Part shown: piece by piece, positions 30,963 to 34,853 of the stretch
How the letters are laid out: each line of letters opens with the position of its first letter
Numbering within the stretch: the first letter of the stretch is position 1
Assembly: GCA_014376525.1 (NCBI GenBank)
Contig: JACMRI010000121.1
Span: 1 to 46,085, forward strand
From: Bacteroidia bacterium
Lineage (GTDB): Bacteria > Bacteroidota > Bacteroidia > UBA4408
Length of the DNA: 46,085 nt
Direction: 5' to 3'
Notes under the pieces: model-generated
Seen by the model: only the letters and a program-made list of their open reading frames with translations
Database searches by the model: none
What the model was told of the DNA's origin: nothing
Position numbers and translations under genes: made by a program

Positions 30963-33900
30963 TTGAAATTATTCAAAAAAACATTCGTACTACTGTTAGT
31001 ATTTACCTATACATTAACCTTTGCAGATATTGCCAACATTAGGTTTGATAACATAGGTATATCGCAAGGCTTATCGCAAAGCACTATAAACTGTGTAATA
31101 CAAGACCAGTTTGGTTACATGTGGTTTGGCACGCAAGATGGGCTTAACCGATACGATGGTTATACGTTTAAAATATTTAAAGCAGGAAACAAACAAACCA
31201 ATGGTTTAGCATCAAGCTACATTAATGCTTTATATGAAGATAAGCAAGGCAACATTTGGATAGGAACAGAAAACGGATTGAGTATTTATAATAGAAAAGA
31301 AAATAAATTTCAATCGTTTTTAAATGACTCTAAAAACCCACAAAGTATAAGCGGAAATTTCATAACAAAAATATATGCAGATAGCTGGAACACATTGTGG
31401 ATAGCTACTGCTAACGGTTTAAATAAAGTTATTGTGGATACTACCACTGATAATAAAAAAATAAAATTTCAAGTATTTAAACACAGCCCAACAGCCAATT
31501 CTATAAGCGAAAATACGGTAAATGATATAGTAGAAGATAAAACAAATAATTTGTGGTTAGCTACATCAAACAGTTGTATAAATAGATACAATAGAGAGAA
31601 AAACGAATTTGTACAATACCCCATAAATAATACCTATAACTACAGTTGTAAAACGGTGTATGTAGATGAGCAAAATGTACTTTGGGCAGTAACATCATTG
31701 GGTTTATACTATTATAACAGGGCCGAAAAAAACTTTGAACCTATTGTATATGGTAGTTCTAGCATAGCCAACAAACTAAAAGAAGTAGGAATAACAGATA
31801 TAAAACAAATAGAAAAAAATAAGTATTGGATAGCCACTACCAACAATGGATTATACCAATGGAACAATGCCACGCATACTTTGCAACACTACATGCAAAA
31901 CACCCTCTCGGCAGGCAGCCTTACCGACAATAGAGTTACGGCAATACTCAAAGATAATGCTGGCGTATACTGGCTGGGTACTAGCAACGGAATAAGTAAA
32001 TTTGACCCTAAAAAACAATATTTTAATGGATACAACTCTCTAGCTGATTTATCTAATGATAAAATATCTAACAATATATGGAGCGTATTAGCTAACAATA
32101 ATAATCTGTATATAGGCGCTGATGATGGTGTGTACGTTCACAGTAACGAAACAAATACTACTAAATTATTAGCTATAAAATTTCCTTATAAAGGGGCTAA
32201 TTTAACTTACACTATAAAACAATTAAACGCTACGGAGCTTGTTTTTGCTGGCAGTTATGGTGTGGTTATATACAATACGTTAACTTATACATACCGTACA
32301 GTAAGTAAATTAATAAACAAAAAAACTAAAGTAAGTAACTTATACATATATGATGTAATACCTGTAAACGCTAGTGAATTATTGGTTACTACTAATAGTG
32401 GTTTATACTTACTAAACATAAATTTAGCACAAGAACCCCAATTATTATCAAGTATTGAGACTAATAGTAACAATAGCTATAATAGAATAACACGCTCAAG
32501 AACACCTAACCAGTATTGGGTAGCCACTAATAATGCTGGCATATTAAGAGTAGTAAAAAACGGAAATAAATATAGCGTTACACCTCTCTCGTTTCCTAAT
32601 AATAAATTAGCTTTTTTGAAAAAAAATTCGGTAATGCATATTTTTGAAAAAGAAAAAAACATGCTATGGATTGCCACTTTTGGAGGAGGTTTGGTGCATT
32701 TAGATATAAATAAAAATACGATAGAAATATTTGACGAAACACAAGGCTTAAGTAATAATTCTATATACGGAATAGTGCCCGATGATAAGAACAATTTGTG
32801 GTTAAGTACTAATAATGGCATATCGTGCTTTAACACTTTAACAAAAGCATTTGCTACGTTTCATGAAAGCGACGGCTTGCCTAGTAACGAATTTAACTTA
32901 GGGGCATTTGCTACAAGCCCCGATTGTAAAATTATATATTTTGGTAGTATAAACGGACTTACAAGTTTTAACCCATCAAACATAAAAATTAATACCATTG
33001 CTCCAAAGGTTATTATTAGTGCGGTAATGTTGGCTAATAAATCTTTGGAAGTAAATGAAAAAGGACCATTAAAAACTGATTTGGCATTTGCACAAAATAT
33101 AGATTTAAGCTACAAAGACAACCTCATTACCATTGAGTTTGCAGCGTTACATTACAGTAATTCTAACAAAAATGAATACGCATATATGCTTGAAGGACTA
33201 GATGAAGACTGGAACTACATTGGCAACCGTCGCATAGCTATATACAACAAATTAAAACCTGGTGTATATTTATTTAAAGTAAAAGCAAGCAATAGTGATG
33301 GCGTATGGAGCAAAACTCCTACAACGATACGAATAAGCATTACTCCGCCATTTTGGGGTACCTGGTGGTTTCGTATTTTATTGTTTATAACATTAGCTTT
33401 GATAGGCTATTTATACTACCGCCGTAGGTTAGTAGCTATTATTAATTACCGCATTAAACTTGAACAAAAAGTACAAGCACGCACCAGCGAAATTCAAGAA
33501 AAAAACATACTCCTTGAGCAACAATCTATAGAACTTGCGGTAGAAAAAGAAAAATCGGAAAAACTTCTCCTCAATATTCTACCACAAGAAACGGTGGACG
33601 AACTTAAAAATAAAGGTAAGGCATCAGCCCGTCACTACCGCTCGGCATCAGTTATGTTTACTGATTTTAAAGGCTTTACCACTATAGCAGAGTCTTTGCG
33701 ACCGCAAGATTTAGTGCGAGAACTGGATTCCTATTTTATAAAATTTGATGAGATTATAGAACGCCATCAAATAGAAAAAATAAAAACAATAGGCGATGCT
33801 TATATGTGCGTAGGAGGTGTGCCTGTGCGCAACAAAACTAATCCTATTGATATAGTGCTTGCGGGCTTAGAAATACAACGCTACATGCACGAGCTAAAGT

Positions 33901-34853
33901 TACAAAAGCAAACTGCTGGCAAGCCCCACTGGGACTTGCGTGTAGGCATACATACTGGCGAAATAATAGCAGGTGTAGTAGGTATAAAACGTTTTGCATA
34001 TGATGTATGGGGCGATACAGTAAACGTGGCACAACGTATTGAAACAGCCTGTGAAATAGGTAAAGTAAACGTATCTGGAACTACGCACGAAGTAATAAAA
34101 GAATTTTTCGATTTTGATTACCGAGGTAAGGTAATGGCAAAAAACAAAGGTATGGTAGATATGTACTATGTACTGGGCATTAAGTCCGAACTAAGCTTGG
34201 ACGGATTAGGAATAACGCCCAACCCTGCTTTTGTGGATAGACAAGAACATTTATTATATAGTAAAATTAATTACCGTAAAGCAGAGCAATACGTTATAAA
34301 ACTATTGGAAGACAAATTACCTACAAACCTGTACTACCATGGCATACACCATACACTGGAAGTGTGTGCTGCTGCCGAGCGTATAGCAATAGCCGAGGGT
34401 ATTGTAAGCGAAGATGTACACTTACTAAAAACAGCTGCCCTATTACACGATGCTGGTTTTACTCAACAATACGAAAAAAACGAGCCTATAGGCTGCGAAT
34501 TAAGCCGAGATATACTACCACAATTTGGCTACAGTAGCAAACAAATAGAAACAGTAATAGATCTAATTATGGCTACGCAAATACCACATAAGCCACAAAA
34601 CTTAATGGAACAAATAATGTGCGACGCAGACTTAGATTATTTGGGTACAGAAACTTTTAATGAAACTTCCAATAATCTCAAACGAGAGTTGATGGCATAC
34701 GATAAAATAAAAACTGATAAAGAGTGGGACACAATACAGGTGCATTTCTTAACAGCACATTATTTTTTTACGGATACTTCTAAACAATATCGTGTACCAC
34801 TAAAACAAATACACTTAGAAATTGTGAAGCAACGTTTAGCTAATTACATTTAA
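30963..34853 (+). CDS. Hybrid sensor: Reg_prop beta-propeller + Y_Y_Y + TM + coiled coil + class III adenylate cyclase + HD phosphohydrolase (TTG start)
   Basis: Signal peptide; repeats 'GYMWFGTQDGLNRYDG', 'GNIWIGTENGLSIYN', 'NLWLSTNNGISCFN'; 'YAYMLEGLDEDWNYIGNRRIAIYNKLKPGVYLFKVKASN'; TM 'WWFRILLFITLALIGYLYY'; cyclase 'SVMFTDFKGFTTIAESL', 'IKTIGDAYMCVGG', 'VGIHTGEIIAGVVG', 'YDVWGDTVNVAQRIE'; HD 'YHGIHHTLEV...AALLHDAGF...IMCDADLDYLG'. Confidence 0.93.
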   Translation: MKLFKKTFVLLLVFTYTLTFADIANIRFDNIGISQGLSQSTINCVIQDQFGYMWFGTQDGLNRYDGYTFKIFKAGNKQTNGLASSYINALYEDKQGNIWIGTENGLSIYNRKENKFQSFLNDSKNPQSISGNFITKIYADSWNTLWIATANGLNKVIVDTTTDNKKIKFQVFKHSPTANSISENTVNDIVEDKTNNLWLATSNSCINRYNREKNEFVQYPINNTYNYSCKTVYVDEQNVLWAVTSLGLYYYNRAEKNFEPIVYGSSSIANKLKEVGITDIKQIEKNKYWIATTNNGLYQWNNATHTLQHYMQNTLSAGSLTDNRVTAILKDNAGVYWLGTSNGISKFDPKKQYFNGYNSLADLSNDKISNNIWSVLANNNNLYIGADDGVYVHSNETNTTKLLAIKFPYKGANLTYTIKQLNATELVFAGSYGVVIYNTLTYTYRTVSKLINKKTKVSNLYIYDVIPVNASELLVTTNSGLYLLNINLAQEPQLLSSIETNSNNSYNRITRSRTPNQYWVATNNAGILRVVKNGNKYSVTPLSFPNNKLAFLKKNSVMHIFEKEKNMLWIATFGGGLVHLDINKNTIEIFDETQGLSNNSIYGIVPDDKNNLWLSTNNGISCFNTLTKAFATFHESDGLPSNEFNLGAFATSPDCKIIYFGSINGLTSFNPSNIKINTIAPKVIISAVMLANKSLEVNEKGPLKTDLAFAQNIDLSYKDNLITIEFAALHYSNSNKNEYAYMLEGLDEDWNYIGNRRIAIYNKLKPGVYLFKVKASNSDGVWSKTPTTIRISITPPFWGTWWFRILLFITLALIGYLYYRRRLVAIINYRIKLEQKVQARTSEIQEKNILLEQQSIELAVEKEKSEKLLLNILPQETVDELKNKGKASARHYRSASVMFTDFKGFTTIAESLRPQDLVRELDSYFIKFDEIIERHQIEKIKTIGDAYMCVGGVPVRNKTNPIDIVLAGLEIQRYMHELKLQKQTAGKPHWDLRVGIHTGEIIAGVVGIKRFAYDVWGDTVNVAQRIETACEIGKVNVSGTTHEVIKEFFDFDYRGKVMAKNKGMVDMYYVLGIKSELSLDGLGITPNPAFVDRQEHLLYSKINYRKAEQYVIKLLEDKLPTNLYYHGIHHTLEVCAAAERIAIAEGIVSEDVHLLKTAALLHDAGFTQQYEKNEPIGCELSRDILPQFGYSSKQIETVIDLIMATQIPHKPQNLMEQIMCDADLDYLGTETFNETSNNLKRELMAYDKIKTDKEWDTIQVHFLTAHYFFTDTSKQYRVPLKQIHLEIVKQRLANYI

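Follow-up and report, generated by a model that had tools for sequence, protein, structure and literature searches.

A Bacteroidia protein that combines a Reg_prop/Y_Y_Y sensor module, a class III cyclase and a cyclase-linked HD domain

Signalling in the Bacteroidia is usually described in terms of hybrid two-component and ECF systems. A census from 2005 covered the four Bacteroidetes genomes sequenced by that time and listed no adenylate cyclases in them (PMC1183210), and our literature searches, which are weak evidence given their thin coverage of subscription journals, returned no paper on a Reg_prop (two-component regulator propeller) protein with a class III cyclase and no HD-cyclase fusion in Bacteroidota. 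The closest precedent comes from plants: CAPE (COMBINED AC with PDE), found in liverworts and other streptophytes (PMC5159850, PMC8115329), carries a cyclase and an HD-type phosphodiesterase in one chain, and both activities have been shown (PMC5159850). On the sensory side, BT4663 and BT3049 of Bacteroides (PDB 4a2l/4a2m and 3v9f) place a double propeller and a Y_Y_Y domain ahead of one transmembrane helix and end in a histidine kinase and response regulator. The protein analysed here is a conserved, uncharacterised signalling protein; its parts are known, and no description of their combination was found. Computation established its domain content, its fold, its intact active sites and the linkage of its HD domain to cyclases.

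Sensor module, membrane passage and cyclase

The gene lies in a window of 46,085 nucleotides (the whole stretch of DNA analysed) and occupies positions 30963-34853 as a single 1296-residue frame of 3891 bases, with a TTG start and no internal stop; it and all its features below are on the + strand. The start sits 27 bases past the folA stop, PBP1A is a further neighbour, and an M16 peptidase gene faces the cyclase-HD gene. A search of these three neighbours for a pointer to a receptor found none, so that an earlier note's remark on their silence holds for the window; related genomes are discussed below. The domain set, order and coordinates which that note had proposed were borne out, since Reg_prop, Y_Y_Y, Guanylate_cyc and HD all match Pfam above gathering cut-offs, with the cyclase at 33630-34175 and the HD domain at 34344-34631 (Pfam limits).

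The chain opens with a signal peptide (residues 1-21, 30963..31025, from hydropathy and the reading frame; hydrophobic stretch 6-26), followed by two seven-bladed Reg_prop beta-propellers at about residues 28-680 (31044..33002), which are predicted to be periplasmic. The propellers match PF07494 at 9.7e-35, and the sensor part matches PDB 4a2l (BT4663) at 2.3e-105 by phmmer; a regular expression for the strand xxLWIGTxxGL finds 12 copies, and counting by eye gives 14. A Y_Y_Y domain (residues 731-793, 33153..33341; PF07495, 4.8e-16) leads to a lone transmembrane helix at residues 797-819 (33351..33419; hydropathy, model helix 801-852) and then to a cytoplasmic signalling helix, or cyclase transducer, with an LLLNILP motif (residues 820-885, 33420..33617), which the model shows as a continuous helix. 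For residues 1-853, an AlphaFold model (pLDDT 82) could be superposed on BT4663's periplasmic domain, 4a2m/4a2l, with a Foldseek E of 2e-52 and TM scores of 0.75-0.86. With 14 blades, a Y_Y_Y domain, a signal peptide and one transmembrane helix, the input module is thus of the sugar-sensor type found in hybrid two-component systems (HTCS). The protein itself is not such a system, as Pfam found no HisKA, receiver or HTH domain in it, and the earlier reading of an HTCS-type input with a cyclase in place of the kinase stands, as does the single membrane passage behind a signal peptide. From this topology the propellers should be periplasmic and the cyclase and HD domains cytoplasmic. Four other Reg_prop/Y_Y_Y proteins in the same genome carry a SpoIIE phosphatase output and one a His_kinase output (L002-L005, L008), which makes the cyclase one output among several for this kind of sensor.

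The class III adenylate cyclase domain (residues 890-1071, 33630..34175) matches Guanylate_cyc PF00211 at 1.5e-47 and can be aligned from end to end with adenylyl cyclases of bacteria and mammals (PDB 4p2f, 7yz9, 8buz). Its metal aspartates (D901, D945), adenine-specifying pair (K941, D1014) and transition-state pair (N1021, R1025) are all present, which together with the fold places it in class III (IIIa); D901, D945, K941, D1014 and N1021 are invariant in 109/109 cyclase homologues, and the R1025 position is Arg in 101 of the 109. These are the residues that had been picked out beforehand, with one adjustment: the adenine-specifying Lys of EKIKTIGD is there, but it is the second Lys of that motif, K941, and not the first. 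We assign it by its distance from D945, following the established residue numbering of class III cyclases. In these enzymes the residue set tells ATP from GTP substrates, and retention of the K941/D1014 pair and its companions makes ATP the expected substrate, as previously suggested. Judged by homology, the protein is very likely to have adenylate cyclase activity (ATP to cAMP). No second class III cyclase was found in its genome, which is 94% complete.

An HD family that accompanies cyclases

The HD domain (residues 1086-1296, 34218..34850) belongs to an unnamed, cyclase-linked family delimited from PF01966, alignments, the model and Foldseek. The Pfam match (5.1e-9) spans residues 1128-1223, and the H...HD...D ligands noted at the outset were found as H1130, H1162-D1163 and D1221/D1223. 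Across 55 homologues Y1125-H1126, H1130, H1162-D1163, E1174, D1221, D1223, W1255 and H1266 are conserved in 98-100%, and a model built from 36 sequences (pLDDT 95) has the all-helical HD fold, as expected of an HD-superfamily metal-dependent phosphohydrolase. Searched alone against the PDB with phmmer, the HD sequence had no match up to E 1. Foldseek ranks 2pq7 and B. subtilis YpgQ first, then PDE4/PDE5 at 0.014; a profile of 36 homologues ranks them likewise, PDE9A scoring 0.008 in a match confined to the YHxxxH...HD part.

Class I phosphodiesterases share a YHxxxHxxxV...HD spacing in which the leading His serves as general acid and the following one binds metal. The HD family described here has this motif at the same spacing (YH-x3-H), and PF00233 (class I PDEase_I) does not reach its cut-off in the window protein. 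An extra His between the HD pair and the last Asp is listed in a review for all known polynuclear HD phosphodiesterases (PMC8177086); the 55-homologue alignment has no such conserved His between D1163 and D1221, so the site lacks the polynuclear signature and resembles that of mononuclear phosphatases. The protein sequence also has no GYP motif, and NCBIfam gave only a sub-threshold HDIG match; an HD-GYP c-di-GMP phosphodiesterase was rejected for want of that motif.

The distribution of the family bears on its function. Among 197 Bacteroidia genomes, class III cyclases (PF00211) occur in 117 and the HD family (E <=1e-50 to its profile) in 105; 104 of these 105 also have a cyclase, compared with 13 of the 92 genomes without the family. 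Fisher's test on these counts gives 7e-40, a value inflated by shared ancestry among the genomes. A stratified exact test within families, which covers the part of the 197 with a listed family and draws no information from families without cyclase variation, gives P = 1.4e-5, and a crude sign test, in which 9 families agree and 4 disagree, is not significant (P 0.27). One genome (G105) has the HD family and no class III cyclase. The number of HD copies per genome is in most cases one to three, usually one, even where there are up to 16 cyclases, and five with 13-16 cyclases (G067, G179, G146, G080, G090) have one or two. A sister HD subfamily serves as an internal control: it is not tied to cyclases, which accompany it in 11/29.

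Other cAMP phosphodiesterases are scarce in an inventory covering class I, class II and E. coli-type CpdA among the calcineurin-type enzymes. Class I and E. coli-type CpdA exceed their cut-offs in 0 of the 197 genomes and class II is present in eight, one of them marginal; on these counts all three were rejected as the usual resident cAMP phosphodiesterase. Among the 13 cyclase genomes without the HD family, two (G065, G190) have a class II enzyme, and another (G140) has the strongest CpdA-like match, which is below cut-off. Genomes with a class III cyclase thus nearly all have the partner HD family and are without recognised class I/II phosphodiesterases. Although indirect as to substrate, this is the pattern expected if the family were the usual cNMP phosphodiesterase of Bacteroidia, and it suggests a so far unrecognised cAMP-degrading partner of their cyclases.

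Architectures and gene neighbourhoods in relatives

Proteins of 1260-1380 aa with the whole domain set are encoded in MAGs of Flavobacteriales and other Bacteroidia (L039-L048, L051, L056, L058, L062, L063), including members of the family to which the window genome belongs. The architecture is therefore widespread in the clade and not unique to that genome. Other forms are TM-CYC-HD (510-530 aa), CYC-HD (about 610-630 aa), REC-CYC-HD (L153, L154) and Reg_prop-CYC without HD (L071, L076), and at eight loci cyclase and HD are neighbouring genes (L064, L065, L066, L086, L095, L111, L118, L030). Explaining the fused state on the HD tree takes four or more label changes, of which well supported branches force at least two; fusion of the family to class III cyclases has occurred a minimum of two times and probably more.

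The short TM-CYC-HD clade (L049, L052, L053, L055, L057, L059, L067, L132, L137) has His or Ala in place of the cyclase transition-state Arg and an intact HD site; in two genomes (G079, G138) the Arg-replaced protein is the only class III cyclase detected. A strong family member at L152 (575-3163) has the HD domain at the protein end, where it takes the place of a cyclase behind what looks by eye like a TIR-like N-terminus and then TPRs. In L155 (1647-2699) and L156 (1674-2801) the frame continues beyond the HD domain into a region with several TM segments that, by eye, looks like YitT/DUF161. The sister subfamily has its own fusions, to PycTM, a Pycsar effector domain (PF18967; L157 911-1999, L159 827-1900), and to polyphosphate kinase (PPK1) and PrmC methyltransferase (L158 2412-4001, L161 325-1830); the PycTM form is possibly a self-limiting cyclic-nucleotide effector.

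Whereas the window neighbours are uninformative, the cyclase-HD gene in related genomes can lie directly downstream of PorP/SprF and PorE-like OmpA genes. A PorE-like gene (TPR, PD40 propeller, CarboxypepD_reg, OmpA) is upstream on the same strand in 15 of 26 related loci, often overlapping the cyclase-HD gene by a few bases, and a PorP/SprF-type gene is close by in about nine of the 26. Genes of these two kinds lie directly upstream in many relatives, among them L041 (156-3434), L049 (2328-5738), L046 (3-3416) and L062 (1-3396). As the 26 loci are mutually related, the adjacency represents few independent events, and the suggestion that the gene shares an operon with components of type IX secretion or gliding is a lead only. 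The window genome has nine PorP/SprF genes, all elsewhere than the cyclase-HD locus.

Proposed mechanism and its alternatives

We propose that the protein is an inner-membrane one-component receptor whose periplasmic double propeller and Y_Y_Y domain, of BT4663/HTCS type, would bind a ligand. The resulting change would pass through the one transmembrane helix and coiled coil to the class IIIa adenylate cyclase, which as a homodimer would make cAMP from ATP, and the C-terminal HD domain would hydrolyse the cyclic mononucleotide, so that the same chain, under reciprocal control of its two activities, would set how high a local cAMP pulse rises and how long it lasts. Stand-alone HD relatives may act as the cell's general cNMP phosphodiesterase in many relatives. 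We regard cNMP phosphodiesterase as a moderately probable identity for the HD domain, and give the full model, a receptor that both makes and destroys cAMP, a little better than an even chance; ligand sensing, cAMP synthesis, hydrolysis by the HD domain and reciprocal control are all inferred. Counted in its favour are the domains and folds, the complete set of cyclase catalytic residues, the fusions, gene adjacency, co-occurrence, low HD copy number, scarcity of other phosphodiesterases, class I-like spacing, the sister subfamily's independence of cyclases and the CAPE precedent with both activities. Against it stand the missing His, nearest folds (2pq7, YpgQ) that are not phosphodiesterases, the HD genome without a cyclase, the Arg-less cyclase clade with an intact HD site, and the want of a canonical cAMP receptor. 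The idea of a self-limiting synthase and hydrolase in one chain, raised in the earlier note, is strengthened by co-occurrence, repeated fusion and adjacency, with the HD substrate still unproven.

The HD domain might instead be a phosphatase or pyrophosphohydrolase of nucleotides akin to YpgQ and YfbR, acting on a linear nucleotide or a signalling by-product and leaving the cyclic bond alone, with a metabolic or regulatory link to the cyclase. Its mononuclear-type H...HD...D site without the extra His and its best structural neighbours fit such an enzyme, which we nevertheless consider less likely in view of the near-obligate co-occurrence with cyclases, the repeated fusion and adjacency, and the lack of other cNMP phosphodiesterases. 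HD domains with a regulatory role are known, and the position directly after the cyclase in the fusions would suit an allosteric sensor of cAMP, ATP or another nucleotide that adjusts cyclase activity and is itself barely catalytic or not at all; conservation of the metal ligands, E1174 and H1266 in nearly all homologues, stand-alone versions included, makes this quite improbable. Slightly more improbable still is degradation of another second messenger, such as c-di-AMP, c-di-GMP or (p)ppGpp, which would couple two signals. Enzymes that act on these molecules are found in the HD superfamily (PMC8177086), but the window sequence has no GYP motif, and no fusion to a GGDEF, DAC or RelA-type synthase was seen, the synthase fusions of the subfamily being only to class III cyclases.

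Phosphodiesterase activity of the HD domain would leave the question of what reads the signal. The suggested check for CRP-family regulators found, as the sole PF00027 (cNMP_binding) match in the window genome, a 180-residue Crp/Fnr-like frame cut by the contig start (L119, 2-544), in which no canonical cAMP-binding signature was seen by eye. G005, a 99% complete genome with a sensor cyclase-HD protein (L011, L040), has no PF00027 protein, so a different type of protein would have to serve as any cAMP receptor in that organism, and the Crp homologue of P. gingivalis is cAMP-independent (PMC12040651). On these grounds CRP was rejected as the receptor. A propeller-sensing cyclase fusion that signals to a non-CRP receptor and is tied in some lineages to PorP/PorE, and so to type IX secretion or gliding, is a tentative reading that we place somewhat below even. 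What reads the signal in G005, with a window-type protein and no CRP-type domain, is the question that these genomes pose.

Each part of the protein has a described counterpart from which the whole departs. With BT4663 and BT3049 it shares the double propeller, Y_Y_Y domain and single membrane passage, whereas its output is a cyclase and HD domain. Mycobacterial class IIIa cyclases (Rv1625c/Cya; solved, e.g., as 4p2f and 7yz9) have the same catalytic residues and transducer helix, but a multi-TM input and no HD phosphohydrolase. The HD hydrolases 2pq7 and YpgQ (5dqw) have the fold and H...HD...D site in stand-alone form, in contrast to a family marked by a YHxxxHT...DADLDYLGR signature and by its linkage to cyclases. 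CAPE, like the window protein, joins a class III adenylate cyclase and an HD-superfamily domain in one membrane protein; unlike it, CAPE is eukaryotic, with an N-terminal true class I phosphodiesterase, two transmembrane helices and no propeller sensor. If the HD family does degrade cAMP, it would fill a gap in the cAMP signalling of a whole class, and the window protein would be a compact bacterial analogue of plant CAPE, with on and off functions separable by point mutation.
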